In this document: positions 1,380-24,909 of the stretch, piece after piece
How positions within the stretch are numbered: the first letter of the stretch is position 1
Layout: each line of letters starts with the position of its first letter
Origin: Melioribacteraceae bacterium
GTDB lineage: Bacteria; Bacteroidota; Ignavibacteria; Ignavibacteriales; Melioribacteraceae
Reading direction: 5' to 3'
Length of the DNA: 44,488 nt
Assembly: GCA_021740785.1 (NCBI GenBank)
Contig: JAIOZI010000045.1
Coordinates: 1 to 44,488, forward strand
Notes under the pieces: generated by a model
Databases searched by the model: none
Told to the model about the DNA's origin: nothing
What the model saw: the letters and a program-made list of their open reading frames with translations, nothing else
Made by a program: the position numbers and the translations under genes

Positions 1380-1507
1380 AAAAGATTCTCTAATTAATTT
1401 ATTTTCTTTTTGAATTCGGACTAATGGGAAAAATAGCAAGAGTTATGAGGTAGAGTATCGCACTTTGTGCCCTCTTTTTTCATTATTCTAGCGATATTGT
1501 TTACACC

Positions 1508-2437
1508 TTAAAGCCCTATCTGATAACGCAATTCTTTTAATTGCAACTCTGCAGAATAAAGATCACCAATCAAATCAGTAGAGAGATGTTTATATCTATC
1601 TTTAATAACAGGGAAAGCATTGATGACCTGGGAATATTTTTTCTTGTCCTGTGATATTACATAAAGTTTTGTATTCGCATAATCCATCAATGTAGCCATA
1701 CGACCAACACCAGACCAAGTGCCGGTTGATATTTCAACTTCGAAAGCATACTCAGGAATAAGTTTAGGTCCATGTTCACCAAACCATAAAACATCGATTT
1801 GCCGCAACAAATTATAATCAGAAAATTGTAATTCAGGACAACTTTCTAAAGTGGTTATCTCTGATAAGTGTTTACCATTAAACTTTTTTGATTTATTAGG
1901 AGAGAAAGTTCTAAATCCTCTAATATTTCCGATTTCAATTAATCTACCTTGTAAGACAGAATGCAAACTTTCTTCTATACTCCTGTTAGTGGTTTCACCG
2001 TATAACTGCTCCAAAGAATTCCAAGAATTAACAAACTCGTTGCAATATAAACGATTATTTCTACCTTTGAGAATAATATTAAGGTCTTTATCAAGACTTA
2101 TTTTATATTCTCCATTTCTGTCATGACTAATTTTTGTTAAATTTTTAAATAGAATATGAGCAGGTAATATTAAGGTATTATCGACTGAACCACATATAAA
2201 AGCAATAAATGGATTGTCGAGATTTGCCATTTCTTCAACTGTAATGTAATTGATTCCGAAAAAATAACGATTGTTACCCGTAGTTTTTGAAGCAGCCCGG
2301 ATCAGAACATTTGCTTTAGCTATTTTATAAACCCTAGCACGTAAAATTTGCTCTAAATTTATATCCGGATAAAATGAATTAGCAAGACCAAGAAATTCTT
2401 CAACTAATACTTTTGTTGGATGGAAATGGTCGGACAT
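1508..2437 (-). CDS. Hypothetical protein with PD-(D/E)XK-like C-terminal region
   Basis: A 309-residue protein with no N-terminal signal, so probably cytoplasmic. The C-terminal third contains Asp215 (QIDVLWFG), Glu233 and Glu235 (AFEVEIST), then a hydrophobic KLYVIS strand. This ID...EVE-S/T arrangement occurs in restriction-nuclease-like proteins and resembles a PD-(D/E)XK core in which the usual Lys is replaced by Glu235. The N-terminal half (residues ~57-150) has mixed alpha/beta character and no motif I can name. It is co-directional with the TdeIII-like gene 128 bp downstream. It could be a second nuclease, a specificity partner or an accessory DNA-binding protein; this is inference from motif and context only. 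Confidence 0.55.
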   Translation of the reverse strand: MSDHFHPTKVLVEEFLGLANSFYPDINLEQILRARVYKIAKANVLIRAASKTTGNNRYFFGINYITVEEMANLDNPFIAFICGSVDNTLILPAHILFKNLTKISHDRNGEYKISLDKDLNIILKGRNNRLYCNEFVNSWNSLEQLYGETTNRSIEESLHSVLQGRLIEIGNIRGFRTFSPNKSKKFNGKHLSEITTLESCPELQFSDYNLLRQIDVLWFGEHGPKLIPEYAFEVEISTGTWSGVGRMATLMDYANTKLYVISQDKKKYSQVINAFPVIKDRYKHLSTDLIGDLYSAELQLKELRYQIGL

Positions 2438-3087: not shown

Positions 3088-3615
3088 ATGAATGATTTCA
3101 AGAAATTAGCACGGTGGTCAACATATAAGAAACTGACAAGCAAGAAAGATATAAAGAAATTTTTAAAAAAGATCGTTTCATTGAATGCGAAACCATCACA
3201 TATTGCTTTTAGTATTGCGTTGGGAATTTTTATCGGGATGTTGATTCCAATTGGTCTTCAGACAGTAATTGCACTACCTTTTGCGCTGATGCTTGAATGC
3301 AATTTATTTCTAACGATGGGAGCAACTTTGATTAGTAATCCCGTTACAGTCGTGCCGATGTATTATTCTGCAATAAGAATAGGAGAATATCTAACATCGA
3401 GTGAAATTTCGTGGGATAAGGTCAACAGGATATTCGAATATCCAACATTTCAAAACTTTGCCGATTTAGGTAAAGAGGGATTGATAATCTTTTTCACCGG
3501 GTCATTTATTCAAGGAATTATAGCGGCACTAATTATTTATTTAATCACGAATCAATTTGTAGTATATGCACGAAAAAGGAAAGACATTCAAGTTGAAGAT
3601 CTGCCGATTAGCTGA
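3088..3615 (+). CDS. DUF2062 family membrane protein
   Basis: A 175-residue protein from ATG 3088, preceded by AAAGGA at 3071-3076. An upstream in-frame GTG at 3061 lacks a ribosome site. It has a basic cytoplasmic N-terminus (KKFLKKIVSL), then the DUF2062 hallmark: a Gly-rich hydrophobic segment (ALGIFIGMLIPIG), the TLISNPVTVVP loop, and a last membrane helix (FTGSFIQGIIAALIIYLI) with a basic tail. Family knowledge: DUF2062 proteins are small inner-membrane proteins of unknown function, sometimes beside glycosyltransferase genes. The stop codon overlaps the 3' end of the convergent kinase gene by 8 nt, with no terminator between them. Confidence 0.85.
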   Translation: MNDFKKLARWSTYKKLTSKKDIKKFLKKIVSLNAKPSHIAFSIALGIFIGMLIPIGLQTVIALPFALMLECNLFLTMGATLISNPVTVVPMYYSAIRIGEYLTSSEISWDKVNRIFEYPTFQNFADLGKEGLIIFFTGSFIQGIIAALIIYLITNQFVVYARKRKDIQVEDLPIS

Positions 3616-5722
3616 ATATCAATTTTAAAACATCCGTGAGCTTATCTCTTAAAATCGGTTTTGAAATAAAATCCCTAAAACCGGCAGCAATAAATTTTTC
3701 CCTATCCCCCGGTAATACATAAGCCGTAACAGCAATAATAGGTGTATTCTCATAACCCGGAAGTTTTTGAATAAATCTCAGTGCATCAAGTCCATTATAT
3801 TCACCTTGCAGATTCATATCCATTACAATAAAATCGAACTGCTTGCTTTTGATAATGGGAAGAGCATTTTCAAAACTAGTTGCAAATTCAATCTGCTTAA
3901 GATCTTTCATCTGCACTTTGAAAAGTATCTGGGAATCAAGTTGATCTTCCACATATAAGCATGATAATTGCGAAAAATTCAATTCCTTCTTCTCACCGGC
4001 AGTCTGCTTCGAAGGTTTTGATTCAGTTTTGGAAACGGGCTTTTGATCCGCAGTTGATTTATCGTCATCTTCTTCTGCACCTTGAGAAACAAATTGATCC
4101 ATCCCTGGTCGTGATGCAGGCGGCATTTCAATTCGCGGTTGATAATCTTCTTCATTCTCCGGCACTTCAGGTTTCGTTTCTTCTTTTGGCGGCGCTTCTT
4201 TTTTAACTTTTTTTACTTTTTGAGGCGCTTCTTTTTCTTCAGTTTGTGCCGGTTCGGCTTGTGATGGTTTTATAGGAATGAGAACACCAAACTCATAATC
4301 TTCTTCTCCTTTGACCACTGTTTCAACTCTCCCGTTGAAAAGCTGTATAATTTTGCGCGCCAATCTCAATGTAAATCTGGAAATACCATAATTTCTTCTC
4401 ACTGTGTTTTCATCTTCCGTAAAAATTTCACTAAGCCTGGTATTAAGTTCCGGGGTAATTTGATCGCGCATGTCCCGCAGACTTATAATCGCATACTCAT
4501 CATCATATTCTTTAGCGGAAATAAATAAATTTCTTTCTTTTGCAACCCGAACGGCAAATTCGACGAAAAGCGAGATTAATGTGATCAGTCTTTGTTTATC
4601 AATTTCCAGTGATAAAGAAGATGAAATTTTCCCGTACCCGATTTCAATTTTATTACTCTGCGCAAGTTTCTTCGTATTCTCAATTATCTGATCCAGTGAA
4701 TCAACAAATGTAATTTTTTCATTATTTATTATAACTTTACTATTCTCAAGCGCTGCGTATTCGCTTGCTACATCCATTAAATAGCGGAGAAGTTTCTGAT
4801 TCTCTCTAATAATTTCAACCGATTCAATCTGTTCTTCCGTAGGTTCTTCGATACTGTCGCCCAGTTCTTGAGCAAAACCGATAATTACATTTATCGGCGT
4901 CAATAATTCGTGAAATAAATGTCCTAAAAATTCGGCATCCATCGCACTTGAAGAACCTTCTGCCGCACCCGGGGCGCCCTCTTCTTTTTCAACTCCAGTT
5001 GATTTAGGCTTAAGTGTAATATTATAAGAATCAATTTCATTTGAGTAATCTAAAATTGGATTTGCAGACAACTCAACTTTAACAATACTTCCTGATGATT
5101 TTTTTACCTCGGCATCAAAATTAACTTTTTCTTTTGCTTTCTTCTGGAATACTTCACTGTTAACTTTTCCCCTATCACCATCAGCAACAATTGAAATAAA
5201 GGGTTTCTTTTCCAGTTCTGATTTTGAATACCCCAATGATTTCATCGCTGTGGAATTGGCATAGGTAAGGAATCCATCACGGTCTGTAAGAAATACATAA
5301 TTATTTGTTGATTCAAAAGTTGCTTTAAAAATTTGTATCTTTTTTTCTAATTCAACATGTTCCGTAACATCTCTAACAATATTTAGGTGTGCACGGTTAT
5401 CTTCAAAATCCATTGTTGTTTTGCTGATTTCAACTAAAACAGAATTACCGTCACTTTTTTTATGGCGCCATGGACCCGTAAAAACACCTTCTACTGCTTG
5501 GTTTGTTGAGGATTCGATAAGTGTTTGAATATCTTCGGGTGCGTACAGGTCGGTTAAATCCATTTGAAGAAAATCTTCTCTACTGTAACCATAAAGTTTA
5601 AGCGCCGCATCGTTCACCTCTAAAAATCTCAGATCTTCAATGTTGTAAATAAACATCGGCTCCGGACTTGTATGTAAAATTAAATCGTACATTTTATCAT
5701 TCTTGTTTTTATTATCGTTCAT
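3608..5722 (-). CDS. PAS-PAS hybrid histidine kinase/receiver, ATP-binding domain degenerate
   Basis: A 704-residue cytoplasmic protein with no membrane segment. Order: PAS ~10-125, PAS ~130-240, HisKA with His271 (FHELLTPIN), an ATPase-like region ~375-485, a Pro/Glu/Lys-rich linker ~490-580, and a receiver ~586-704. The receiver looks intact: Glu592/Asp593, phosphoacceptor Asp635, Thr666, Lys688. The ATPase region is eroded: where an N box should be it reads LISLFVEFAVRVA with no Asn, the DxGxG box reads RDMRDQI, and the GxGLGL box reads NYGISRFTLRL. It may not bind ATP normally, acting as a phosphatase, a sensor scaffold or a partner of another kinase. It is the last gene of the exopolysaccharide-type locus, 33 nt after the lipoprotein gene, suggesting it senses or controls that process. 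Confidence 0.85.
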   Translation of the reverse strand: MNDNKNKNDKMYDLILHTSPEPMFIYNIEDLRFLEVNDAALKLYGYSREDFLQMDLTDLYAPEDIQTLIESSTNQAVEGVFTGPWRHKKSDGNSVLVEISKTTMDFEDNRAHLNIVRDVTEHVELEKKIQIFKATFESTNNYVFLTDRDGFLTYANSTAMKSLGYSKSELEKKPFISIVADGDRGKVNSEVFQKKAKEKVNFDAEVKKSSGSIVKVELSANPILDYSNEIDSYNITLKPKSTGVEKEEGAPGAAEGSSSAMDAEFLGHLFHELLTPINVIIGFAQELGDSIEEPTEEQIESVEIIRENQKLLRYLMDVASEYAALENSKVIINNEKITFVDSLDQIIENTKKLAQSNKIEIGYGKISSSLSLEIDKQRLITLISLFVEFAVRVAKERNLFISAKEYDDEYAIISLRDMRDQITPELNTRLSEIFTEDENTVRRNYGISRFTLRLARKIIQLFNGRVETVVKGEEDYEFGVLIPIKPSQAEPAQTEEKEAPQKVKKVKKEAPPKEETKPEVPENEEDYQPRIEMPPASRPGMDQFVSQGAEEDDDKSTADQKPVSKTESKPSKQTAGEKKELNFSQLSCLYVEDQLDSQILFKVQMKDLKQIEFATSFENALPIIKSKQFDFIVMDMNLQGEYNGLDALRFIQKLPGYENTPIIAVTAYVLPGDREKFIAAGFRDFISKPILRDKLTDVLKLIFS

Positions 5723-5755
5723 TTATGCTTTATTAATAATTATTATACTCAAAAA

Positions 5756-7552
5756 TTAATACGGAATAGTTACAGGAACAATAGCAGAATACTCGGAATC
5801 AACTTCATCATTCGAAGCTCTTAGTCTATACTCATAGGAAGTACCGCGGTACAATCCTGAAGTCTGATCCGTATATGTTTCTATGTTTTCACCAACAACA
5901 GCAATCCTTGTAAAACTACTTGTACCAGAAATTCTTCGTTCTATCTCATACCTAGTTTCAAGAGTTGAGTTATCGGTCCAAGTTAAATAGACTTTAACAT
6001 TTCCCGAAGTATCCGGTACTGCAGTAAAATTTGTTGGCTTCAATAAAGGAGTTACCACTTCATTCGTAAAATCAGAATAAAGCGTTCCCTTAAAAGCGCG
6101 CACTGAAAAATAGAATATGCTATCTCTGCTTACATCGCTTATAGTAATATCATCAACATTTCTTGCTGTTGTTTTAAATAGCTCAAAAGTACTGGCAGAA
6201 CTAACCTTTCGCCATATTTCAAATCCATCTTCATCATTTGAGTTATCAGTCCAACTCAACAAAAATCTATTTGTACCGGTCTCGTTAATCAATAGATTTG
6301 AAGGAGCTAAAGGTGCAACCAGCGGGGCACGTGCTGTATCAATATTCGAATAATTTGTATATGTACCTTCCGAAGTTACATGTCTAGCGCGGTAATAATA
6401 AACAACCTCAGCCTGAAAATTTTGATCATAGAAAATACTAATATCATTATCGGTTGAACCAATCTCGGAATATCTTGTATCCGATGCAAGTTTTCTCTCA
6501 ATTTTTGTACCGTATTCCTGGTCGGTATTATCGCTCCATGTAATTTTTATTGCCCGTGATTCAAAATCAAAATCTGCAACTAAATTCGAAGGGGCTGCAA
6601 CATCTTGGCTGCCGGTTTCTACTTCAGTTGTATTTGAGTAAGCAATGGTAGTGGTTAATAATGCACCTACACGATAGCCATAAAGATTACGCGAGAGCAA
6701 TCCTTCATCAAGATATTCAACCGAGTTGGGTGCAACAACTCCAACTTGTTTAAATTCTTCATCTCCGGCAGAATAATTTAATCTTTCAATCACATATCCG
6801 TTTTCATTATCGGAATTATCATTCCAAGTTAAAATAACCCTTGATGCACCGATAGCAGAGGCAATTAAATTTGTTGGAATATCGCTGCCAGAGGCTCCGC
6901 CTGTATTCAATTCATTACTAAATTCCGATGCGCCGTTTTCGTTTACCGCTCTTACTTTGTAAAAATAATCAACGAATTCACTAAGCCCGATATCGGTTGT
7001 ATTCGTTGCATCCTGCGGTAATCTTTTATAATATGTTCCGCCATAACTGCCATTATTTCCTTTGCTTCGCCAAACTTCATAATTAGTTTCATTAATAGCA
7101 TTATCTTCCCATTGCAATAAGACCTGGTTGCTATTAAAGATACTTAAAGTAAGATTTGATGGAGCTGCAGGCAGGTTTGAAACATATAGGTTATTTATAA
7201 CACTACTGATTTTCATACCGCCTTCAAGATTATAAACAATCACGTAATAACTAATCCGGTTTCCGATTAAAGACTCGGAGATAGTCATAAATAAAGTATC
7301 ACCTTGATCAAATCTTTCCTGAAATTCATCATTAACAAAAACTTCGTAATGAGAGATTCCTTGTCCGCCGGCATAATCCGAGGCGCTGACCTTAATTATA
7401 TTTTTACCGATTTGCACCGTATCCCCTTCTACCGGTGAAGTGATTGTAATCGTTGGAACAGCATTAGGATTTTCAGCTGATGATTGGACACAACCGATAA
7501 AAAGCAATGAAACCGAAAATAAAATAGTTAAACAGCCGAGTAATTTTTTCAT
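5756..7552 (-). CDS. Multi-fibronectin type III lipoprotein
   Basis: A 598-residue protein with a lipoprotein signal peptide (LLFIGC, lipid-acceptor Cys21). An Ig-like segment (~30-125, ITSPVEGDTVQIG) is followed by about five FN3 modules beginning near residues 128, 222, 320, 415 and 508. Each has the PxAPSNL...L.W.DN....Y.I.R pattern. It probably sits on the periplasmic or outer face as a binding or scaffold protein. Its ATG overlaps the stop of the upstream NodB-like gene by 4 nt (ATGA), so the two are translationally coupled and probably act together. FN3 arrays often bind polysaccharides or enzymes, so a role in handling the exported polymer is reasonable but inferred. Confidence 0.85.
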   Translation of the reverse strand: MKKLLGCLTILFSVSLLFIGCVQSSAENPNAVPTITITSPVEGDTVQIGKNIIKVSASDYAGGQGISHYEVFVNDEFQERFDQGDTLFMTISESLIGNRISYYVIVYNLEGGMKISSVINNLYVSNLPAAPSNLTLSIFNSNQVLLQWEDNAINETNYEVWRSKGNNGSYGGTYYKRLPQDATNTTDIGLSEFVDYFYKVRAVNENGASEFSNELNTGGASGSDIPTNLIASAIGASRVILTWNDNSDNENGYVIERLNYSAGDEEFKQVGVVAPNSVEYLDEGLLSRNLYGYRVGALLTTTIAYSNTTEVETGSQDVAAPSNLVADFDFESRAIKITWSDNTDQEYGTKIERKLASDTRYSEIGSTDNDISIFYDQNFQAEVVYYYRARHVTSEGTYTNYSNIDTARAPLVAPLAPSNLLINETGTNRFLLSWTDNSNDEDGFEIWRKVSSASTFELFKTTARNVDDITISDVSRDSIFYFSVRAFKGTLYSDFTNEVVTPLLKPTNFTAVPDTSGNVKVYLTWTDNSTLETRYEIERRISGTSSFTRIAVVGENIETYTDQTSGLYRGTSYEYRLRASNDEVDSEYSAIVPVTIPY

Positions 7553-9480
7553 AATTTCGATGTGATTACCTTATTATCACTTTCAACATTTTCAAAATCT
7601 ATAAGCAGCGATCTTGATTCCCCGGATTCAAGATTTTCAACGTCCAGTAAAATTGTATTGGATGATTCATCAAAAGTAAAATCCGGAATTTCTGTGTTAA
7701 TAATATCAGATGATATTTTGATATCTTTTATTTTTTTGTTTACATAAACCTGCACAACAAAATCTTCCGTATTTTGATTACCTGGATTTGTTATTTCAAG
7801 CGCCAACCTTCTTTTACTTCGAGTAGTATATTGAATTTCTATACCGCCGCGCCTCAACCACCACTGATACAATTGATCGATAGTAGGAAGCCAGAAATTT
7901 TTCTCAACAATATACTTCATCATTTCACCAACCACCGGGGCGTACTGAGAACGGAGCTGTGAATCGGTGTGAACGCGGAATAGATAAAGCCCGCCTTCAA
8001 ATAAAATTCTATCCACATCCTCTTCATAAGTATATTTTTGAAAATCCAAATCCCTCAGACCATAGTCATCAATAATTTTGTAATCATCACGTGCAGTTTT
8101 TGTTAAAATAAGTATCGGAATTTCATTTCTATATTCAATCTTCGGAACAGACCGATCGGTAAGTGAATCGAGTACCATAAAATTGTAACCGGTAAGAGAC
8201 ATAGCCTGTAATGAATTTTCGTCACTAAATCCATACAGTGGTGAAAAACCTTTAATAGGTGGATTGATAATAGTACTGTCAATAATATCACGGGTTTTCA
8301 TCATTACTTCAACTTGAGTTGGGCGATCAAATAATTTATTAACCGTATCCTCAACTGATTCAAGAAAACCGACATCCGATAATCCGCCAAATTCACCGTA
8401 CTGAGAAGTTTCTCTCATTAAGCTTGGATTTTCCAATGCTATATAGGGGTCAACGAAGAAAACAGCCGGATACCTGTAATTCCTCATGACGCCAAAAAGA
8501 TTTGATATGTTTGCCGGTTCATTAGTAATTGTTGGTATTAGTACTGCTGCAGCGTCGTATGGTGAAGGCCAATCCCTAATATATGAAACCGGTTGATACG
8601 TCAACCAATTCATACAATTTTTAAACATTCTATCGAAATAAATATAATCTTCCTGTTCACCGATTACGGAATTAATTTCAAATCCGAACCAGACAAATCT
8701 CCCCTTGCCGTAAGAACCATAAGCAATACCGGCGCTATTTTCAATTTGTTCTCTAACTAATCCAGCTTCTTTTCTAAAATCAAACCAGAAACTAACTTGA
8801 GTAGTTCGCGGTTCTAAAACTTTAGCATAAATCGGTCGATCCCATGTGGCAATTTTCAATGTATAACCGGTCGGTATTCCTGCGGTAATCGGAAGGTTTC
8901 CTCTGAGTGTGTGAATTTTATAAGTTTCTTCCGGATCCATTTCTCGAGTGAAATTCATACCAAAAACTTCCGTAAAAAATTCCCAGCCTCTCCATTTGGC
9001 ATCCTGGGATACGGTTGCAGTTCCACCTGTAGCAAATATGCTGCCGCCATTATTTATATATTTTTTCAATTGAGATAGCTCTCTATCACTAAGAGAACTA
9101 GAACCAGGCAGGATAATTACTTTATACCCCATATGATTGCCGAGTTCAATTGTCTGATCAGAGATTATGTCATAGGCAAATTTATTGGCGCTCAGGAAAC
9201 TTTCCCAGGTGCTTACATTATCGCTTAGCCATGTATCACCGTCCTCAAGTCTATTCTCTGTATATTTAGAATAGAGAACCGCTACTTTATTTTTCTCAGC
9301 AGTGAGCAATGAGAGATTTGCCTTAGTAGGAGTTATCTCATCAATTTCATATCTCCCGTAAACACCTTTCAGTACCAAAAGAAATACCAGAATGGCTGCA
9401 ATAATAAGGACCAAACCACCGATAAATATAATTAAATAATTTACAGTGAAGCCCGTATTTTTAGCACTCTTTACCGCCAT
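7549..9480 (-). CDS. Membrane-anchored GATase-like/NodB-like protein, catalytic residues apparently lost
   Basis: A 643-residue protein: one N-terminal membrane anchor (~15-37), then an extracytoplasmic region. Residues ~64-290 look like a class I glutamine amidotransferase-fold domain (KVIILPGSSSLSDREL...GGSIFATGG). Residues ~305-560 follow the layout of a NodB polysaccharide deacetylase (YPAVFFVDP, then GFSPLYGFSDENSL). The usual TFDDG motif is IPTITN at 315-320, and no HxxxH zinc motif is seen where GEFGGLSDVGFL stands (362-373). A beta-sandwich-like tail follows. It overlaps the upstream gene by 10 nt and the downstream one by 4 nt. By position it corresponds to PgaB/IcaB, but it more likely binds glycan than deacetylates it. 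Confidence 0.7.
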   Translation of the reverse strand: MAVKSAKNTGFTVNYLIIFIGGLVLIIAAILVFLLVLKGVYGRYEIDEITPTKANLSLLTAEKNKVAVLYSKYTENRLEDGDTWLSDNVSTWESFLSANKFAYDIISDQTIELGNHMGYKVIILPGSSSLSDRELSQLKKYINNGGSIFATGGTATVSQDAKWRGWEFFTEVFGMNFTREMDPEETYKIHTLRGNLPITAGIPTGYTLKIATWDRPIYAKVLEPRTTQVSFWFDFRKEAGLVREQIENSAGIAYGSYGKGRFVWFGFEINSVIGEQEDYIYFDRMFKNCMNWLTYQPVSYIRDWPSPYDAAAVLIPTITNEPANISNLFGVMRNYRYPAVFFVDPYIALENPSLMRETSQYGEFGGLSDVGFLESVEDTVNKLFDRPTQVEVMMKTRDIIDSTIINPPIKGFSPLYGFSDENSLQAMSLTGYNFMVLDSLTDRSVPKIEYRNEIPILILTKTARDDYKIIDDYGLRDLDFQKYTYEEDVDRILFEGGLYLFRVHTDSQLRSQYAPVVGEMMKYIVEKNFWLPTIDQLYQWWLRRGGIEIQYTTRSKRRLALEITNPGNQNTEDFVVQVYVNKKIKDIKISSDIINTEIPDFTFDESSNTILLDVENLESGESRSLLIDFENVESDNKVITSKL

Positions 9481-9992
9481 CTAAGAGTTTCCTCTTTTTT
9501 AGATTCTTCTTTTTTCTTACTTTTTTGCTTTTCAGGTTCTACATAACCTTCTTCAGTATATCTCATAAAACGAGATTTACCGGTGAATTTTTCCGCTTCA
9601 ACCGTTGGTTTTGGTCTGGCAACCGGTTTCTTAAATTGCTGTTCCTCTGCATAAGTTGGAGGATTAACAAAAGTAGGTCGAAGCTGCGGTCCGGTTTCCC
9701 TTTCCTGAGTAGTAGCAAACATCGGTTGACGTTGAGATTCAGCACCGGTTTCCCGTGTTACATATTGCTCATCCACATAAGTCCGCCGCGTACCGGTTTG
9801 AGTTAACTTCTGTTCGGTCATCAATGGTGCCGGTGTAATTAGTTCAGCAGGCAGAGCGCTGGGTTGTGCAGCTTTTTGCGTTCGCCCTTTACGTTCTCTT
9901 ACTTTATATAATACATATGCACCAACGGCTAATATGAACGTAGATATTGTTGCAACAAGAATAATAAGTGATAAAATTGGAATTAATTCCAT
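9471..9992 (-). CDS. Small single-pass membrane protein
   Basis: A 173-residue protein with one N-terminal membrane helix (~5-28, PILSLIILVATISTFILAVG), then a basic stop-transfer (KVRERKGR). The tail is low-complexity, rich in Pro, Gln, Thr and Lys, ending in Lys/Glu-rich sequence. No known family is recognised. It starts 27 nt after the GT2 gene and overlaps the NodB-like gene by 10 nt. By position and topology it could be the functional counterpart of PgaD-like small partners of processive synthases, but sequence similarity is not visible. The disordered cytoplasmic tail may recruit other locus proteins. Confidence 0.65.
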   Translation of the reverse strand: MELIPILSLIILVATISTFILAVGAYVLYKVRERKGRTQKAAQPSALPAELITPAPLMTEQKLTQTGTRRTYVDEQYVTRETGAESQRQPMFATTQERETGPQLRPTFVNPPTYAEEQQFKKPVARPKPTVEAEKFTGKSRFMRYTEEGYVEPEKQKSKKKEESKKEETLRWR

Positions 9993-10019
9993 TTTATACC
10001 TCTAAATAATTTTCAAACT

Positions 10020-11438
10020 TTACTTTTTTACAGTACCAGTGGCTGCTGCTCCAACACGTTCTAATTTTCCCCAGTCCATTTCAATACCGAGGAATTCTTC
10101 AATTGTCGCCATCCACTTGGTTATATCAATCAATAAAATAAATACAATTCTATATACGAATGAATAAGGGACTAACCTAGCCTCCTCTTTTTCAGCGGCT
10201 ACGCAATAAATTCCAGCCATTAAATCAAGTATTGCAATACCGAGCCACCAAAAGACGATAAGACTTGTCATACCATAGACAAGAGCCACAACAATGAAAA
10301 AGATGTTGGCAAAAATATTCATTGCAGGCCAGATTAATGCTTCAAAAAACATTGATCCCAAAACTAAAGTATTATTAAAGTTCAATGTGGGATTATATAT
10401 ATATTTTTTATGCTTTCTGATTGCTTGTAAAATCCCGCGAGTCCATCTGTAACGCTGTTTAAGAAGCTGCTGTAATTTTTCCGGAGCCTCAGTCCACGCT
10501 TGCGATTCGGGCTCATATTCAATTTTCCAACCTTTTGCTAAAATCTTTAAAGTAACATCGGCATCTTCGGCAAAAGTATCGCTCGAATAATAACCTGCGT
10601 CCTGCATTGCTCTTTTTCTAAATATTCCAATTGGACCCGGGATAATATTTACCATTTTCAAAAATCCCTGGGCGCTTCTTGCCATGTTCAAACCTTCAAT
10701 GTATTCTAGTGCCTGAAGGTCGGTAAAAAACTTTTTCCTGTTTGTGACTTTAACGTTACCTGCAACAGCCCCAACAGCCGGATCTATAAAATGTCTTATA
10801 CCTTTTATCAATGTATCGGGCGCTAGTGTAGAATCACCATCCATGCAGACTACAAAATCCGCTTCAGAATATTGAATACCTGCATTTAACGCTTTAGCTT
10901 TTCCGCCATTCGGTTTGTTTATAAGTGATACTTTAATTTTCTTAGGACCTATTCCGTCATGATGCCCTACTAACTGTTCGGCAACAACTGCTGTATCGTC
11001 ACTTGAACCGTCATTTATTATAATTATTTCATAATTCGGGTAATTCAATTTTAGAAGTGATTCAATCGATTCCTTTATTACCTTACCTTCATTAAACACA
11101 GGGACCAATATTGATATGAATGGAGTATAACCTTCTTTTTCCTGAACAGTATATTTTGTAATATATAGATATGCCAACACAATTATCGAAAAATATCTAA
11201 AAAGCAGTTGGAAGAGAAATAATGCTAGAGATACAATGGATGCATACACAAGCAAACCGGCAAATGATAATACAGTATACGGAAGAGTAATTAAAATAAT
11301 TATCAGAAGAATGACAGAAGCAGTACCGGAGAGAATCATGGTTCTTAATTTCTCACGTTTCTCATTTCTCTTAGGCGGTTCAACTTCCCTATTATCAAGA
11401 ATTATCTGATGTTTTTCTTTTTTCTTTTCGTCTTCCAT
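10020..11438 (-). CDS. Processive family 2 glycosyltransferase (exopolysaccharide synthase)
   Basis: A 472-residue inner-membrane protein with two N-terminal membrane helices (~33-95), a cytoplasmic GT2 domain (~104-340) and about two to four C-terminal helices. The catalytic set is complete: VPVFNEG at ~112, INDGSSDDT at 141-149, DGD at 200-202 (UDP-sugar/metal), the ED pair at 291-292 and QRYRW at 328-332. This is the synthase class of PgaC/IcaA, cellulose and hyaluronan synthases, which polymerise a sugar and push the chain through the membrane. The sugar cannot be predicted here. It is preceded by a 264-bp gap after the TPR-barrel gene, so a second internal promoter is possible. Confidence 0.92.
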   Translation of the reverse strand: MEDEKKKEKHQIILDNREVEPPKRNEKREKLRTMILSGTASVILLIIILITLPYTVLSFAGLLVYASIVSLALFLFQLLFRYFSIIVLAYLYITKYTVQEKEGYTPFISILVPVFNEGKVIKESIESLLKLNYPNYEIIIINDGSSDDTAVVAEQLVGHHDGIGPKKIKVSLINKPNGGKAKALNAGIQYSEADFVVCMDGDSTLAPDTLIKGIRHFIDPAVGAVAGNVKVTNRKKFFTDLQALEYIEGLNMARSAQGFLKMVNIIPGPIGIFRKRAMQDAGYYSSDTFAEDADVTLKILAKGWKIEYEPESQAWTEAPEKLQQLLKQRYRWTRGILQAIRKHKKYIYNPTLNFNNTLVLGSMFFEALIWPAMNIFANIFFIVVALVYGMTSLIVFWWLGIAILDLMAGIYCVAAEKEEARLVPYSFVYRIVFILLIDITKWMATIEEFLGIEMDWGKLERVGAAATGTVKK

Positions 11439-11702
11439 AGCTTCAAATATAGTTATTATTATTTACAATAGCTCAATATCTATGCCACTAAAAAGTTCTG
11501 AAAACGCTCACCAATAATCATTAAATTTAGTTCCCTTGAATCAAACCAATAATATGTATTTATATGATCCAAATTGCAGATAAATTTGACTTAAATATAA
11601 TATAATAATTAAGGTGTTGCAATAAAATAAGTTATGTATGATCATTAAAGTAAATTAATAAAAATAACGAGGTAAACTATTAGTTCTAACTAAATAGTAT
11701 TT

Positions 11703-14600
11703 CTATCTGATTGACCAAAATGCGGTAAAAAAGATAGCCCTTGAATCATAGCCATAACTTTCCCTAACGGTACTGCCAATAAAGGCGTTTAAGCCAAGTG
11801 TAAGGTGTTCAATTGGTTTATAAAATATTTGTGTGTAAAGCTGTCGTATTATAAAATCACTCTCCGGAACATAACCCAATTTACCCCCGATCAAAACATC
11901 AACTTTATTATCTTTATAAACTTGCCATTCACCCCAAAGACTGTGAGAAACAAAATCAGTGGGAGAATAATATAGATTGGTAAGATTATATCTAAAGTCA
12001 CTAAAGAAGTACTCATACCCTAATTCGAGATTCGGTATAAATTTTTTGCCAAGTCTGAATTCAATATTATTGCCTTCATTCCCGGTTGTATAACTTTCTT
12101 CTTCAGTGATCAGGAATTTGTAATACCCTAAGACTCTCAAATCATTTCTAAATCTATAGTCGCCTTTAAACGTAAAAGCATGTGCAGTTAACCGTGTTGT
12201 AACTAAAGTTGGCGAGTACAAAATGAAAGCAGCGTCATTCTGTAAATACGAGAGTTCGAATTCATAGTGATCTTCAACTTCATGTTGAATTCGCGCATCC
12301 CATATTGGATGGTCCAGTCTTCCGGGAGAAAAGCTTCTTCCATATCCTAGAATAATCATCCAATTTTCATGAGGTTTAATATTGATAGACCCGGTATAAG
12401 CAGTATAATTAACATAATTATATAGTGAACTTACATATCCCCTAACAAAGTTAATACCGATGGTGAGATAAGAAGTAACACCGGTTTCCAATCCTATTCC
12501 ACCGTATGAGTAATTGAAATCAAGGTTATCATCAAAGTAATAATATACCGGCGAAACCAAAAGGTATGATAGAAAATTATATCTCAAATCATACATTGTG
12601 CTTCTCCACAGATTGCCTTCAAAAGCTTCAGGCGGAAGCCAGCCAATTCTTTCATCTATCTTATATTCTTCGGGAGCAATATCTTCAACCGATTCATACA
12701 TTGCCAAAGCTTCTTTCGGTCTGCCGACTGCCGAGTAACAATCGCCCAAATAAATCTTCGTTTCATAATCAGTAGAATCCTCTTCTTCAACAAGGCGTTC
12801 AAATTCATATAACGCCGTAACAGAATCACCCTTCCAGAAATAAACTTTTGCTCTCTGCTTATCAAGCTCATAATTATAACCTTCTGATAATGCGCGGTCA
12901 AGAATGTTGACGGCATTATCATAATCCTCAACAGCAATGTATGCATCCGAAATGTCCTTATACACCAGTGGGTCTACATATTGATTCGTATCGGCAATAT
13001 ATTCTTCATATAAAGGAATAGCATACTCTAAATCACCTGCCTTATGAAATTTGCGTGCATCATCTAACTTCTGCATATGTCTTATTTGCTCTTCACGAAG
13101 TTCATGAAGATAAATCATATTATCGAGTTGAATTAATTCCGTGTTATCCGGATTAACATTTCTCGCGAGTTCAGCATAATATTTTGCATTTTCTATATCT
13201 TCATTTGCAAAATAAAGAGAACCCAATGTTATAAGAGCGGAGATATTAGTTGAATCATCTTCTACCACTGACAGCAAATACTCCTCGGCAATTTCTTGAT
13301 CTTCTCTCAGCCATGTCGCTAACTGTCCGAGAAGCAATTTTTGTGGAGTTGAAAGTTCATCTGTGTTTTCCATGATGGTTTTCATCTCTGCATATGATTC
13401 TTCATATCGTCTATCCCAGGCTAGATTCTGAGCGTAAATAAACCTCAGCTCATCATCATCAGGATTTAGCTGAAGATATTCACTTAGTATTTCCAATGCC
13501 TCAGAATAGTTTTCTAAACTTGAATATTTTTGCGCAACTAATTTCGTTGCTTCGCGATCGGATGGATTGGTTTTAATGGCTGCCAGCCCGGAGTCTATTT
13601 TCGCTGTATAAAAAGCTTCTCTCTCTTCAACAACACGATTATAAAGATCGGCATAGCGCTGAGTGCTGCCATATTCTTCTTCCAAGATCAATACTTGTTC
13701 AAAAGCTTCTTCGTACCTTTTCTTTGCAATCAATTCATCAATCAACCTGAATCTTATTTCATCATTATCAGGATTGCTTTTCAGCACCTTAAAATAATAA
13801 TCGATTGTGTACTCTCTCTCAAATGATCTGGGTCTGAATAAAGTTAGATAACCCTTTTGTGTCGCGAGGTCCAAACCATCTTGTGCTTCTTTGAAAAAAG
13901 GTTTAAACGACAAAGCATTTCTGAATGCCTGCTCCGCATTCCTGTAATTACCCAACCACATAGTAAAATATCCATAACGGCTCCATAACCTCCAGTCCTC
14001 AGGATAACGTTCAACATATTTTTTTAATATAATTTCACCCTTCTTTATATGTTTCGTATGGCTGAGTATTTCCGTGTACCTAATAATATCATCCGGGGGC
14101 GCATCATCGTAGCGCGCTAAGTATTGATCATACCATTCTTCTGCAATCAACCATTCTTCCAGCCACCTATAGGCTTTACCGATTTCCAGGTAATTGAAAG
14201 GATTAGTAGGATCAATAGCTATTTCTCTTTTGTAACCGTCTATCTGCTTATAAAGTAATTCGTGCCAGTCTCTTAAAGCTCTATCCAGGTTTTCTTTAAT
14301 TTCTATATTCTGCGGTTCAAGCCTGTGCGCTCTTCGAAAATCTAATACAGCGTATTGATACTGAGATCGTTTTTCATAAGATAGACCGCGAAGATTATAA
14401 CCTTCAGCAAGTTGAGGATTAGCTGTGACAAATTTATGAAATAAATCTATCGCTTCGCCGTATCTTCCGGCTTGCATGTGTGCAATTGCCTGTCTTTTCA
14501 ATCCTTCATCGGATCTGCTTAACTTTTGACTGTAATTTTGTGAAGTGAAAATAAATAAACAGACAATCACAAATAATATTGTAATTGTATTTTGCCTCAT
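11703..14600 (-). CDS. TPR-repeat outer-membrane beta-barrel protein (PgaA/YaiO-like export channel)
   Basis: A 965-residue protein with a Sec signal peptide (~1-24, ending QNYSQ). Many TPR repeats fill ~30-680 (A-x-x-x-G-x-x-x-x-A and N-P repeats). The last ~280 residues are rich in Tyr/Phe and alternate hydrophobic positions, ending in FFTAFWSIR, as expected for an outer-membrane barrel. Family knowledge: a periplasmic TPR domain fused to a barrel is the design of PgaA, BcsC and related exopolysaccharide exporters; YaiO-type barrels look similar. Its ATG overlaps the stop of the KaiC-like gene by 4 nt (ATGA), giving translational coupling. It is the likely export channel for the polymer made by the GT2 enzyme. 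Confidence 0.8.
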   Translation of the reverse strand: MRQNTITILFVIVCLFIFTSQNYSQKLSRSDEGLKRQAIAHMQAGRYGEAIDLFHKFVTANPQLAEGYNLRGLSYEKRSQYQYAVLDFRRAHRLEPQNIEIKENLDRALRDWHELLYKQIDGYKREIAIDPTNPFNYLEIGKAYRWLEEWLIAEEWYDQYLARYDDAPPDDIIRYTEILSHTKHIKKGEIILKKYVERYPEDWRLWSRYGYFTMWLGNYRNAEQAFRNALSFKPFFKEAQDGLDLATQKGYLTLFRPRSFEREYTIDYYFKVLKSNPDNDEIRFRLIDELIAKKRYEEAFEQVLILEEEYGSTQRYADLYNRVVEEREAFYTAKIDSGLAAIKTNPSDREATKLVAQKYSSLENYSEALEILSEYLQLNPDDDELRFIYAQNLAWDRRYEESYAEMKTIMENTDELSTPQKLLLGQLATWLREDQEIAEEYLLSVVEDDSTNISALITLGSLYFANEDIENAKYYAELARNVNPDNTELIQLDNMIYLHELREEQIRHMQKLDDARKFHKAGDLEYAIPLYEEYIADTNQYVDPLVYKDISDAYIAVEDYDNAVNILDRALSEGYNYELDKQRAKVYFWKGDSVTALYEFERLVEEEDSTDYETKIYLGDCYSAVGRPKEALAMYESVEDIAPEEYKIDERIGWLPPEAFEGNLWRSTMYDLRYNFLSYLLVSPVYYYFDDNLDFNYSYGGIGLETGVTSYLTIGINFVRGYVSSLYNYVNYTAYTGSINIKPHENWMIILGYGRSFSPGRLDHPIWDARIQHEVEDHYEFELSYLQNDAAFILYSPTLVTTRLTAHAFTFKGDYRFRNDLRVLGYYKFLITEEESYTTGNEGNNIEFRLGKKFIPNLELGYEYFFSDFRYNLTNLYYSPTDFVSHSLWGEWQVYKDNKVDVLIGGKLGYVPESDFIIRQLYTQIFYKPIEHLTLGLNAFIGSTVRESYGYDSRAIFFTAFWSIR

Positions 14601-15865
14601 TTTATAAATGCACTAAAGGGTCGGTATCCCGATCCGCTTTCATCTGCTGATTCTAAATATTCTATCATTGCATCAGCATTTTCAACACTTTCATTTACTT
14701 CAGCATTGAAGATTGAGATGAATTCAACTACTGCCCTTAAATAGTTTCTATCCTGACTTGGTAATGAATGTAATAAATTTTGCATCAAGTTTGTTATTTT
14801 TTGACGGTCGCTTCTTACAACAAGAACCATAACCTTGTTATCAACTACACAGATTTTATCTTTTTTATCTGTAGACGATTTCACCGATGATTTCAATTGG
14901 TTCAACGATAATAATCCTTTCACCTGTGCAGCCGGGTCAAGTTTAAATGAAATTAAATTGAATTTCTGTCCGGTACTTCTGTACAAAGCAATCTGATTAT
15001 TGAGAATCAATTGAAAATCGGTATAACTGTACACATTTGAAAAAGTATATGATTCAGAAGTAACATCCATACGGGTAAGCCGAATGTTACCAGGTTCTTG
15101 AAAATCACTATCTTCACTTCCGTTGGAATCTTCTTCCTCAACCTTAGTCTCCTCTCCGGAATCTATACTAATTCCCTTGTAGGGCTCAATTTTATATTCG
15201 GCTGAAAATTGACCTTCGGCATGACCTACGTTTGGAGTAATTACAACAGTCCCGCCGTGAAATTTGCTATCAAATTTACTCTGACTCTTTTTCAAATAGA
15301 TAACACCAGTTACAGTATTGGTTATTGTCTCAACCAATTCTTGTGCGCGCTGTGTAGCCGGTTCAGAGATAATAAACATACTCGTAATATCGTGATCTTC
15401 AATTCTTTCAATTGTATGCAGGAATGAATCTCGGAGTCGATTGATATGATTAAAACCTATGTACGGTGTTAGTTCATCAAAAATAATTCTGTCCGGATGG
15501 TACTGGTTAACAACAGTCACAATATCATTCAAGTATTCAACTAAATAATCATCCGGGTTATGCATTTCATAAATATCATTCGGCGGTGCCACTCTTACGA
15601 CGATAATCAAATTTTGATTCATATAAGACTGGATATCAAAATTTAGTGATGCAGCTTGAATCATTAAATCTTTTGGACGCATATTCGTAAAGAACAAACA
15701 TACCTCTTGAGACTTTGCTGTTTCGAGTGCAAATTGAAGACCCAATAATGTTCTGCCAGATTTTCGAGGTCCGATAATCACATAACTTCCACCTCTATAA
15801 ACTCCGCCCCAATTTTTATCAATAAGCTTGAAGCCGGACGATATTAATCTTACTGTGGTTCCCAT
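14597..15865 (-). CDS. KaiC/RecA-like ATPase with atypical Walker A and extra C-terminal domain
   Basis: A 422-residue cytoplasmic protein. Residues ~1-230 follow the KaiC/RadA-like RecA fold: ISSGFKLIDKNWGGVYRGGSYVI before the P-loop, Walker B RIIFDE (Asp130). The P-loop reads GPRKSGRT (32-39), with Arg where the invariant Lys should be. The paired catalytic Glu typical of KaiC (FEE) is replaced by TNMRPKD (60-66). After an acidic linker (~235-260), residues ~275-410 form an alpha/beta region whose strand order vaguely resembles a degenerate GGDEF domain; this is only an impression. It is the first gene of the locus and coupled to the TPR-barrel gene. Such an ATPase is not a standard part of Pga-type systems. 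Confidence 0.75.
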   Translation of the reverse strand: MGTTVRLISSGFKLIDKNWGGVYRGGSYVIIGPRKSGRTLLGLQFALETAKSQEVCLFFTNMRPKDLMIQAASLNFDIQSYMNQNLIIVVRVAPPNDIYEMHNPDDYLVEYLNDIVTVVNQYHPDRIIFDELTPYIGFNHINRLRDSFLHTIERIEDHDITSMFIISEPATQRAQELVETITNTVTGVIYLKKSQSKFDSKFHGGTVVITPNVGHAEGQFSAEYKIEPYKGISIDSGEETKVEEEDSNGSEDSDFQEPGNIRLTRMDVTSESYTFSNVYSYTDFQLILNNQIALYRSTGQKFNLISFKLDPAAQVKGLLSLNQLKSSVKSSTDKKDKICVVDNKVMVLVVRSDRQKITNLMQNLLHSLPSQDRNYLRAVVEFISIFNAEVNESVENADAMIEYLESADESGSGYRPFSAFIK

Positions 15866-16041: not shown

Positions 16042-17754
16042 TTATTTGAAACTTGCAAAAGCAAATATGGCAGTTGCGTTTGCAACAATAGTAGGTTCGT
16101 TTGTCAAATAATCGTTACGATCATCAAAATAAATGGCTTCATCAGTCTGAAAATCTTTAAGCCAATCTTCATTTTCCAGATTAATTTCGTATTTTTCAAA
16201 TATTTCCCGCGTTACTGGTCCGGCAGCAAACCCGCCCGGCAGCTCGATATTTTTCAGAAACGATATTTGGTGATGAAAACTCTTTGAATAATTGCTTCCG
16301 GTCTTTTGTATGAATGAAATTCCCCAAGGATTATTTCCAAGAAGAAAATCTCTTTGTTTGATACTGAGTGTATCAAATTTAGACGAATTTGTTAAATCCT
16401 TATAGAGAATATTATTGAGGATAATTCCAACTAATGTATGGTTAGTGCCCCAACTTGATACATTACCTTTCCCGAATGTATTGGAATATGATGTTTTATT
16501 ATAATGAGTCAAATTATTTTCGATATAAGATTTAAATCTCGGCTCAATTTTCGCCAATTTATAATGCGCTAAAGTGTTAACATCTCCCCAGCTCCACCAA
16601 TAATCGGGACCTGCAGCATCAGCAAGTCTTTTTGCTTCTTCAAGTATTTCGTCCCGGTTCGTTGATAAATACAATTCAACCGCTCCTAATGCAAGTTTAC
16701 CTCTATAATATTTATCAAAGTACATACCGCTGCCGGTACTATCGACATCGGGGACTTCATCTCTAACCGAGAAGACATTCTCTGCAGCTTTTAGACACTC
16801 TTCTGCAAATACAGGGTAACTCAGCACATCATTCCAAATTCTATAAGCCAAAGACATCGCTGCGACGTATATTCCAACAATGTTTTTCCCATTCCCGAGA
16901 TATCCCGGTCTATCAAATTTTAACTCATCATCTTCCGGCATTCTCCATCCCACATCATGATCACGTAAATCTTGCACCTGGATAACCAATTTTTTCATGT
17001 CATATCTACATCTCAACATCCAGTCAAGTCCGACCTTTGCTTCTTCCAAAATATCCGGCACACTGTTATTATTATTATCAAAACCAAATTTAACCGGATC
17101 AAATTCGTACGAAAAGAGAAGCATATAAGTTGCAAAAGCAGTTGTGTTTAGGAACTTAACATAATCACCGGCATCGTGCCATCCACCGGTTACATCAAAA
17201 GATTCTGAAATTACTTCACCATTATTATTATTTAGAGATGTTGCATCGGCGATGTGACATACATCGTGCAATTCGGGATTTGTATAACCGCACCGCTGAA
17301 TCTTAAAGAAATCAAGTAAATGTGAAGAGATCGGATAGAATAGTCCTTCGTTAATCTCAAATACAAACGATTTACTGCTACCGATTCGAATAAAATAATT
17401 GCCTTTTTCTTTAAATTCGCTAAGATCGAAATTATATACAAACGGGAAATTTCCATAACCTGAATCGATCTTCGTCAGTTCGCCCTTATGAACTACCAAT
17501 TTGTTTTTATCATCAACCAATTCAAAGTAGGATTCATTAACGGAGTACTTTGATAGGACAACACCCGATTTTATATCATCAGGATGGAACCCAACTTGAT
17601 TTATCCTGATATGCAGACTCGGCGAAGCTGTAAATGTTGCTGAACAGCCAAGTAAAACTGGTAATGTAAATGCCAAAATAAATTTTAGGAAAACAAGTAT
17701 ATTTCGTTTTACGTGAAGCGCTGACTTCTTCTTAGACCGGGTTTTATTTTTCAC
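16042..17754 (-). CDS. GH9 family glycoside hydrolase lipoprotein (endoglucanase-like)
   Basis: A 570-residue protein if started at GTG 17754, preceded by AGAGAAG. The longer open frame to 17865 would overlap the upstream gene by 77 nt. A basic N-region leads to the lipobox PVLLGC (Cys37), so it should be membrane-anchored. Next comes the N-terminal Ig-like domain typical of GH9 (IRINQVGFHPDDIKSGVV), then the (alpha/alpha)6 catalytic domain. It has GGWHDAGDY with catalytic Asp194/Asp197, FLLGNNPWG and the C-terminal acid Glu553 (YLTNEPTIVANA). GH9 enzymes cut beta-1,4-glucans such as cellulose or act on related glycans. It lies directly upstream of the exopolysaccharide locus on the same strand, so polymer trimming is conceivable, but nutrition is equally possible. 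Confidence 0.88.
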   Translation of the reverse strand: MKNKTRSKKKSALHVKRNILVFLKFILAFTLPVLLGCSATFTASPSLHIRINQVGFHPDDIKSGVVLSKYSVNESYFELVDDKNKLVVHKGELTKIDSGYGNFPFVYNFDLSEFKEKGNYFIRIGSSKSFVFEINEGLFYPISSHLLDFFKIQRCGYTNPELHDVCHIADATSLNNNNGEVISESFDVTGGWHDAGDYVKFLNTTAFATYMLLFSYEFDPVKFGFDNNNNSVPDILEEAKVGLDWMLRCRYDMKKLVIQVQDLRDHDVGWRMPEDDELKFDRPGYLGNGKNIVGIYVAAMSLAYRIWNDVLSYPVFAEECLKAAENVFSVRDEVPDVDSTGSGMYFDKYYRGKLALGAVELYLSTNRDEILEEAKRLADAAGPDYWWSWGDVNTLAHYKLAKIEPRFKSYIENNLTHYNKTSYSNTFGKGNVSSWGTNHTLVGIILNNILYKDLTNSSKFDTLSIKQRDFLLGNNPWGISFIQKTGSNYSKSFHHQISFLKNIELPGGFAAGPVTREIFEKYEINLENEDWLKDFQTDEAIYFDDRNDYLTNEPTIVANATAIFAFASFK

Positions 17755-17788
17755 AAAATCTTCTCTTATTGAGTAATTAATTTTAGTG

Positions 17789-18412
17789 TTACTCTTTTTC
17801 AGTAAATGTAGTTCCAAAAACATGATCCCATGTTGGCTGACTGACTCCAAATCCCTTATTTGCATCTTTGTAATGATGCAACATATGATGTTTTTTTATA
17901 AAAAGCCAAAATCTACTTTTCATATTATAATGATGTATTGCATAGTGGGTGATATCATAAAAAAGGTAACCGATTAAAAATCCGGAAAAGAACGGATAAA
18001 CATTTTCCGGTCCGAGTAACCAAAGATAAAAAAAGTAAAACATCGATGCGAGAGGAAGACTTACCGATGGAGGCATCACCAATCTCCTTGAATCATTTGG
18101 ATAATCATGATGTACGCCGTGAAACATAAAATGAATCTTTTTTCCGAATTTACTTTTAAATTCAAAATGGAAAACAAATCTATGAAGTACATATTCAGTA
18201 AGAGTCCAAATCACCAAACCACCGGCAAGAAGCAAAAAATAATTCGAAATCGATACAGAAAATTCTGCAAATGATATATATGTCATGTAGGAAATAATCG
18301 GGATAAAAATCCATAACGGAACCGACCAATGCACCTTGGAGATAAATTCCAATATATCGTTTTCAAACATTCGAACGGTTTCATCACTATTGGATATGTA
18401 ATTCTTCGCCAT
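17789..18412 (-). CDS. Fatty acid hydroxylase superfamily membrane protein
   Basis: A 207-residue protein with about four membrane helices and the histidine clusters of di-iron membrane hydroxylases: HRFVFH, HGVHHDYPND, HYAIHHYN and HHMLHHYKD. Length and the GVHHDYPND signature fit the FA2H-like group (fatty acid 2-hydroxylases and sterol desaturase relatives). These use O2 to hydroxylate acyl chains, often of sphingolipids or lipid A-like lipids. The stop lies 34 nt before the probable GTG of the GH9 gene, suggesting co-transcription. The substrate cannot be told from the sequence. Confidence 0.88.
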   Translation of the reverse strand: MAKNYISNSDETVRMFENDILEFISKVHWSVPLWIFIPIISYMTYISFAEFSVSISNYFLLLAGGLVIWTLTEYVLHRFVFHFEFKSKFGKKIHFMFHGVHHDYPNDSRRLVMPPSVSLPLASMFYFFYLWLLGPENVYPFFSGFLIGYLFYDITHYAIHHYNMKSRFWLFIKKHHMLHHYKDANKGFGVSQPTWDHVFGTTFTEKE

Positions 18413-24685: not shown

Positions 24686-24689
24686 AAGA

Positions 24690-24699
24690 GCCCTCTCTT
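24690..24699 (-). promoter_or_regulatory. AAGAGAGGGC start-site box
   Basis: Minus-strand AAGAGAGGGC, 4 nt before ATG 24685. The same 10-mer stands before 25044, 27635 and 32449. It could pair with the 16S tail through G-U pairs as a variant ribosome site, or be a regulator/sRNA target. Confidence 0.6.
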
Positions 24700-24741
24700 A
24701 TTTGTTAGTGAAAGTATTATTTATTGGTAAAAGTTGTCTCG

Positions 24742-24770: not shown

Positions 24771-24857
24771 GTTTTAAATTAAAAAATATCTTATTAGCAG
24801 ATATGATGTCTTTTATATTTTAAGATACGGCATCCTCTTTTGTTATTTTCAGACATA

Positions 24858-24885: not shown

Positions 24886-24909
24886 TCTTATATAAAATGT
24901 GATTATCTT

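Follow-up and report, generated by a model that had tools for sequence, protein, structure and literature searches.

How is the secretion of an exopolysaccharide controlled in a lineage where almost no cyclic diguanylate (c-di-GMP) machinery is found? Most of the work on the best-known synthase-dependent systems, those for poly-N-acetylglucosamine (PNAG), cellulose, Pel and alginate, has been done in proteobacteria that use c-di-GMP, and a receptor for this nucleotide that controls the synthase is usual in such systems, although not universal. The question is raised by a locus of a Melioribacteraceae bacterium (GenBank assembly GCA_021740785.1, contig JAIOZI010000045.1, positions 1 to 44,488 of the forward strand; this whole stretch of 44,488 nucleotides is called the window). 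A preliminary description had proposed that seven of its genes form a distinct, signal-gated polymer secretion machine of Pga type with a KaiC-like ATPase and a signalling protein. Our results show that seven or eight adjacent genes form a block that is conserved across one bacterial order, and we consider it probable that this block codes for a synthase-dependent exopolysaccharide secretion machine with control resembling that exerted by BcsE and BcsF. The control module is the interesting part of the locus.

The seven open reading frames (ORFs) are all on the minus strand between 3608 and 15865, as had been described, and code, in the order of reading, for a KaiC-like protein, an exporter with TPR and outer-membrane barrel regions (TPR-barrel protein), a family 2 glycosyltransferase (GT2), a small membrane protein (SMP), a NodB-like protein, an FN3 lipoprotein and a protein with histidine kinase domains (HK). 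The reported overlaps were recovered and measure 4 nucleotides (nt) for KaiC-like/TPR-barrel, 10 nt for SMP/NodB-like and 4 nt for NodB-like/FN3, and the remaining junctions are gaps of 264, 27 and 33 nt. The families KaiC, GT2, TPR, fn3, PAS, HisKA and REC were found in these proteins above the Pfam cut-offs. A genome scan with the NodB-like protein returned 136 relatives, 80 of which were kept as named loci, and gene order was counted only in the 42 with at least 8.5 kb upstream and at least 6.5 kb downstream, the other 38 being excluded. The genes for the KaiC-like, TPR-barrel, GT2, SMP, NodB-like and HK proteins are on one strand and in the same order in 39 of these 42 loci, with FN3 also in place in 35 of the 39. 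Two of the exceptions (L132 and L141) are without the KaiC-TPR-barrel half beside the rest, and one (L172) is without the KaiC-like gene. A family 9 glycoside hydrolase (GH9) gene, missed by the preliminary description, is located upstream of the KaiC-like gene in 37 of the 39 ordered loci and belongs to the conserved block. When each frame is taken to begin at its first start codon, the SMP/NodB-like overlap is repeated in 76 of 78 loci and the KaiC-like/TPR-barrel overlap in 29 of 55.

The 80 NodB-like relatives are labelled as Ignavibacteria/Ignavibacteriales, Melioribacter(aceae), Ignavibacteriaceae or the cultured Stygiobacter electus in 58 cases, as Bacteroidetes/Bacteroidota only in 19, and as 'bacterium', Chlorobiota and Chlorobiaceae in one case each. 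Among 296 genomes of the phylum, the KaiC-like protein was found at E<=1e-20 in 38 (26 of the 27 genomes of its own order and 12 outside the class), with weaker matches in 30 further genomes. The NodB-like protein was found at the same threshold in 36, every one of them among those 38, and weakly in 2 more; the genome G290 has neither protein. Because the genomes are related to each other, such counts are not independent. In 25 own-order stretches (L032-L056, a set that has some genomes in common with the named loci), the six genes are together in 22 and GH9 is present in 23, and the stretches of L036 and L037 stop before HK. As far as the contigs reach, distant families keep the core order of KaiC-like, TPR-barrel, GT2, SMP and NodB-like genes, frequently joined by a further NodB-like gene, and the SMP is weak or unseen in one of them (f26); the profiles of GH9, FN3 and HK were not found beside the core within the stretches fetched. 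The neighbourhood survey suggested in the preliminary description thus found the genes in order rather than scattered, with a split in G152.

We read this block as a synthase-dependent polysaccharide secretion system because the GT2 motifs are intact and the barrel is closest to those of PgaA, PelB and BcsC. The GT2 (10020..11438, minus strand, 472 aa; 112 bits to the Pfam family) is a processive synthase of the PgaC/HAS/BcsA-like kind, predicted in the inner membrane, with transmembrane (TM) stretches by hydropathy and the motifs D, DxD, ED and QxxRW kept in 33 of 33 sequences. Its best-scoring named family is PgaC/IcaA, with 215.4 bits against an equivalog cut-off of 422.3 that is not reached, and it scored 76 bits against CelA. 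With hhalign, K-12 PgaC was matched at 99.9% and BcsA at 98%, and the solved structures that match it include hyaluronan and cellulose synthases.

The TPR-barrel protein (11703..14600, minus strand, 965 aa) has a signal peptide and Pfam TPR matches. Its barrel (residues 685-963, 11712..12548, minus strand), modelled with AlphaFold2 (AF2) from a barrel-only alignment of 28 sequences at a predicted local distance difference test score (pLDDT) of 89.8, has 16 strands, counted as DSSP strands of seven or more residues; the PgaA and BcsC barrels are both described as 16-stranded (PMC9384988). The closest structure in VIA-align 2 is PgaA (4y25; Z 26.1, root-mean-square deviation (rmsd) 2.7, 271 aligned), also the top match in Foldseek, followed by PelB (9h80; Z 24.3, rmsd 3.6, 279 aligned), three BcsC structures (6tzk, 9b8h and 9b8a; Z 24.1-24.2, rmsd 3.6-4.4) and, in sixth place, CymA at Z 17.1. 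The expected kinship of the barrel with polysaccharide exporters therefore held when its structure was compared. By sequence the barrel is too diverged to call (hhalign 10.7% for BcsC and 4.6% for PgaA, the best two of 16 targets), and the TPR-barrel protein reached 30.7 bits against the PgaA equivalog model with its cut-off of 366.65, whereas the structural comparison with PgaA gave the Z above. The TPR half resembles BcsC (hhalign 94.9%).

The GH9 ORF (16042..17865, minus strand) is of the glucanase type, with 231 bits in Pfam and a lipobox-like start, its true start being probably internal. Both active-site Asp residues are kept in 24 of 24 sequences and the acid Glu in 23, the remaining one being a gap; we take these residues to have the catalytic roles known from the family. 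The nearest solved structures are endoglucanases, and GH9 enzymes may accept further beta-1,4 polymers as substrates. As a predicted lipoprotein, this enzyme gives the locus the exported glycoside hydrolase that is a feature of synthase-dependent systems. A fatty-acid-hydroxylase-family ORF (17789-18412, same strand) lies beside the GH9 gene and is present in 21 of the 80 named loci. A GDSL-hydrolase-like gene (27.5 bits, below cut-off) lies between the TPR-barrel and GT2 genes in 21 of the 80 and is not in the window.

The first of the seven genes (14597..15865, minus strand) codes for a protein of 422 aa that had been called a KaiC/RecA-like ATPase. The fold was confirmed, and the residues expected of an ATPase are largely replaced. 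Pfam places it in the KaiC family with 77 bits, and in an AF2 model with pLDDT 85.6 the KaiC fold is matched over residues 3-236 (Z 27.2, rmsd 2.6, 216 aligned), the best 50 structural matches of the whole model all covering the N-terminal domain only (residues 1-235, 15161..15865, minus strand). In this domain the Walker A reads GPRKSGRT, with Lys changed to Arg, and the catalytic Glu pair is absent. We aligned 36 members, 26 from the own order and 10 of the 12 distant ones (L058 and L064 were left out), and all 36 belong to the Pfam KaiC family and keep the P-loop glycines. The Walker A Lys is replaced by Arg in 32 of them, the Glu pair is found in none (a Glu stands at the second position in 3), and the Walker B Asp is present in all 26 own-order members and in 3 of the 10 distant ones. 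In L070, the other KaiC-type protein that this genome encodes, GK and FEE are intact.

The C-terminal domain of this protein (residues 281-411, 14633..15025, minus strand), also missed by the preliminary description, is a degenerate GGDEF-type fold, an assignment made from a profile match and from the topology of the model, in which helices and strands follow the order of GGDEF domains. The profile of the 36 members matched two canonical GGDEF domains (K-12 DgcT and L072) with hhalign at 92%, E 6.6e-7, over 127 columns; the figure was 81% against all GGDEF pieces together and 31% against DgcT alone, and 11 controls (nine other locus profiles, the fatty-acid hydroxylase and BcsE) stayed at or below 1.1%. 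Weak Pfam matches somewhere along the 36 proteins were to GGDEF_2 in 8, GGDEF in 2, CBP_BcsE in 2 (best E 0.043) and PelD_GGDEF in 1 (E 0.0069). The I-site RxxD is present in 7 of 10 distant members and in 0 of 26 own-order members. By sequence and model, then, the KaiC-like protein joins a degenerate P-loop domain to a degenerate GGDEF-type domain, a plan like that of BcsE.

The search for c-di-GMP machinery in the genome found neither PilZ nor EAL at E<=0.01; HD-GYP and other cyclic dinucleotides were not searched for. Its sole GGDEF match is a GAF-GGDEF protein (L071 94-1983, G000:C77) that reads GRLSDKIF at the motif and is thus degenerate. A survey of 35 genomes, namely 34 of the 38 with a strong KaiC-like match (without G051, G062, G082 and G172) and G290, found at E<=0.001 that each of the 23 own-order genomes has exactly one GGDEF match and that 11 of 12 distant genomes have none; the motif is degenerate in 22 of the 23 own-order proteins, the piece of the other (L076) being incomplete there. 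Since there is no PilZ, no EAL and only one degenerate GGDEF protein in the genome, control of the window locus is probably independent of c-di-GMP, as judged from these sequences, and neither a PilZ receptor nor an own-order I-site was seen. Sensing of c-di-GMP by the KaiC-like protein of the window had been suspected from the RxxD of distant relatives and is disfavoured by the scarcity of GGDEF proteins. One distant genome (G183) has both a KaiC-like protein with RxxD (L063) and a canonical GGDEF protein (L072), which weighs against dismissing such sensing.

The SMP (9471..9992, minus strand, 173 aa) has one N-terminal TM helix followed by a long hydrophilic, presumably cytosolic tail, which ends in a conserved stretch (9474..9590, minus strand; F..YT.EGYV, ending L.W, among the 10 alignment rows listed) that we propose as a docking peptide. 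The preliminary description had taken the SMP for the PgaD part of a Pga system, but hydropathy gives one TM stretch here and two in K-12 PgaD, and hhalign found no match between them. PHROGs had no match for the SMP or for the NodB-like protein.

The membrane-anchored, periplasmic NodB-like protein (7549..9480, minus strand, 643 aa) consists of a ThuA/GH42M-like and a degenerate NodB-like domain, all below the Pfam cut-offs (Polysacc_deac_1 15.1 bits, ThuA 27.9, GH42M 19.5). It had been described as deacetylase-like, and this is not upheld by its motifs: an exact-pattern search for TFDDG-type and HxxxH motifs was negative for 31 of 32 members, the sole exception being one HxxxH in L063. The NodB-like half weakly matches the deacetylase 2j13 (E 2.6e-6), and the profile aligns with a solved deacetylase across the place of HxxxH, where the motif is not kept; K-12 PgaB was not matched by hhalign (0.1-0.3%). 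Downstream of the NodB-like gene, a further and more diverged NodB/ThuA-like gene is found in L049 (11188-12873), L055 (7109-8689; no Pfam match), L063, L065, L066 and L183. The FN3 lipoprotein (5756..7552, minus strand, 598 aa), described as coupled to the NodB-like gene, has bacterial Ig (Big_7) and FN3 domains and, on reading the sequence, a lipobox FIGC. In two distant-family loci (L066 7137-9005 and L062 10519-12390) a lipoprotein gene is divergent to the KaiC-like gene, and the one in L066 has Big_7 and PQQ-type beta-propeller repeats and a start that resembles by eye that of the FN3 lipoprotein.

The last gene of the block (3608..5722, minus strand) codes for a soluble PAS-PAS-HisKA-HATPase-REC protein of 704 aa. 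The domains had been recognised in the preliminary description, and all 23 sequences retain the phospho-acceptor His as well as the Asp and Lys of REC; the kinase function implied by its name is not borne out by the ATP-binding boxes. HATPase_c scores 22.4 bits, below the Pfam cut-off of 26.4, none of the 23 has the first Gly of the G1 box and 17 of them lack the next one, Asn is found at the N-box positions in 2 and 1 of 23, and the changed boxes are visible in an alignment with a solved kinase. The ATP-binding domain is therefore degenerate and the protein, by its sequence, kinase-dead.

From these sequences and models we infer the interactions, the activities or their loss, the polymer and the step of control as follows. 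A nucleotide-sugar would be polymerised by the GT2, which would also move the chain across the inner membrane. The TPR domain would lead it over the periplasm to the 16-strand outer-membrane barrel, and GH9, like BcsZ, would trim or clear periplasmic chains. Polymer handling or scaffolding may be the task of two non-catalytic parts, the ThuA/NodB-like protein and the FN3 lipoprotein. In E. coli, the single-pass BcsF is described as complementing the beta-sheet of the BcsE NTPase domain, itself catalytically incompetent, a binding that recruits the regulatory complex to the cellulose synthase, and BcsE has the layout NTPase*-REC*-GGDEF*, in which REC and GGDEF are degenerate (PMC7439463; PMC11470070). 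The tail of the SMP could in the same way recruit the cytosolic KaiC-like protein to the synthase, where it would assemble the synthase or hold it active, without c-di-GMP in this lineage. The pair may thus resemble BcsE/BcsF in outline, an analogy of working mode and not of family membership because sequence homology to BcsE or BcsF was not found. Given how little c-di-GMP machinery was found, the signal would be expected to come via protein contacts and the PAS/REC protein, which could couple the complex to a small-molecule signal or to phosphorylation by a different kinase. The "signal-gated" secretion of the preliminary description would be of this kind.

Several results weigh against this explanation. 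Neither the KaiC-like protein and E. coli BcsE (hhalign 0.2-0.6%) nor the SMP and BcsF (0.7%) show sequence similarity, CBP_BcsE (PF10995) was not found in the genome at E<=0.1, and there is no REC* domain in the KaiC-like protein of the window, residues 237-275 being a low-confidence linker in the model; the corresponding linkers of distant members are longer. The match of the C-terminal domain to the canonical GGDEF pair is 3.2% with own-order members only and 85.5% with distant members only, therefore the GGDEF signal stems from the distant members; against the order's own degenerate GGDEF set it is 0.5%. The Walker A Lys is retained in 4 of 36 members and the Walker B Asp in all own-order members. 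The block of G152 is divided between two contigs, the break falling after TPR-barrel and before GT2, with GH9, KaiC-like and TPR-barrel genes only on one (L047) and GT2, SMP, NodB-like, FN3 and HK on the other (L177), and two genomes outside the class (G030 and G179) have a KaiC-like gene without other core genes adjoining.

The PgaABCD parts list of the preliminary description could mean that the locus is a divergent Pga system making partly deacetylated PNAG, with the extra genes as local additions. The two share a PgaC-type processive GT2, with PgaC/IcaA as its best named family, a TPR exporter with a 16-strand barrel for which PgaA is the closest solved structure, a periplasmic NodB-type domain with weak resemblance to deacetylases, and a small membrane protein beside the GT2. 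However, the parts list is upheld only in part: the PgaC and PgaA equivalog cut-offs are missed widely, the deacetylase motifs and any match to PgaB are lacking, the small protein has one helix instead of two, and the nearest solved structures of GH9 are endoglucanases. The window locus also differs from PgaABCD in its KaiC-GGDEF-type protein, GH9, FN3 lipoprotein and PAS/REC protein, and in a genome where no PilZ, EAL or canonical GGDEF was found. We rejected canonical Pga membership on three features (PgaC cut-off, PgaB motifs and PgaD helices), and a divergent Pga system is unlikely. It is somewhat easier to accept, though still doubtful, that a cellulose-like product is made, a beta-1,4-glucan or something close to it. 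GH9, upstream in nearly all ordered loci and related to endoglucanases, would then be the counterpart of BcsZ, and the locus shares with type II Bcs systems that have BcsE/BcsF in E. coli the TPR-barrel exporter with its BcsC-like TPR half, a glucanase-type enzyme, a cytosolic degenerate NTPase with a degenerate GGDEF-type domain and a single-pass, long-tailed small protein. It differs from them in the absence of BcsE/BcsF homology, of REC* and of the RxxD I-site in own-order KaiC-like proteins; there is no PilZ in the genome, none of eight profiles matches K-12 BcsB (hhalign at or below 1.0%), the GT2 is nearer PgaC than BcsA and scores far better for PgaC than for CelA, and the range of beta-1,4 polymers open to GH9 enzymes tempers what that gene says of the product.

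The Pel system is alike in a barrel close to that of PelB and in a degenerate GGDEF regulator, which is the PelD plan. KaiC and archaeal KaiC-like ATPases share the fold and Pfam family of the N-terminal domain, and a working ATPase that powers or times polymer secretion could be argued from the fold, the P-loop glycines, the few members with Walker A Lys and the own-order Walker B Asp. This is improbable, since most members have Arg for that Lys and none has the Glu pair, whereas the other KaiC-type protein of the same genome keeps both sites; the window protein also differs from those ATPases in being a single degenerate P-loop domain fused to a GGDEF-type domain. That the block is a chance or historical neighbourhood without common function is scarcely conceivable: the split in G152 and the incomplete loci L132, L141 and L172 speak for it, but 39 of 42 loci in order rule out mere chance, and the recurring SMP/NodB-like overlap, the matched presence of KaiC-like and NodB-like proteins across the phylum and the same core order in distant families all stand against it. 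These results agree with the first proposal of a polymer secretion locus that is distinct, synthase-dependent and found across the lineage and that includes a KaiC-like protein, and control in the manner of BcsE/BcsF remains our favoured explanation of it.

Elsewhere in the window, no Rfam match was found at gathering scores, and promoter and terminator scans were at about the level of shuffled sequence (66 vs 64.5 and 7 vs 9.5). Three secreted proteins of great length (1332, 855 and 1516 aa) are encoded at 20687-32449 (minus strand); they contain repeats of Ig/FN3-like segments, and their C-terminal region, of the NYPNPFNP type, is presumably that of type IX secretion cargo. An ORF at 40443-40862 resembles, on reading, an IstB-type transposase helper and is apparently a fragment, and two adjacent ORFs at 351-2437 (minus strand; 362 and 309 aa) look like what we take to be a restriction-type pair.

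Among the open-licence papers listed for our searches, no title or abstract start described this locus; the main text of PMC7112194 does not mention Bacteroidetes, KaiC, Ignavibacter or Chlorobi, and that of the Melioribacter roseus genome paper (PMC3534657) has neither 'KaiC' nor 'exopolysaccharide'. More tentatively, and with somewhat less than an even chance in our view, the locus may represent a separate, c-di-GMP-free class of polymer secretion, with a pseudo-KaiC/GGDEF hub, a one-helix tether and a synthase gated by contacts and a kinase-dead PAS/REC relay, in which the RxxD of distant members, absent from the own order, is a trace of ancestral c-di-GMP sensing. If that ancestral state is true, regulators like BcsE either evolved on two occasions or are older than the divergence of these phyla. 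The locus suggests that the same core of GT2 and TPR-barrel operates in a lineage where hardly any c-di-GMP machinery was detected, and a regulator on the BcsE plan without the ligand motif would let a BcsE/BcsF-type module be tested apart from c-di-GMP sensing. It also offers a gene marker for a matrix polymer in a group that includes M. roseus, a species described as digesting cellulose (PMC3534657).

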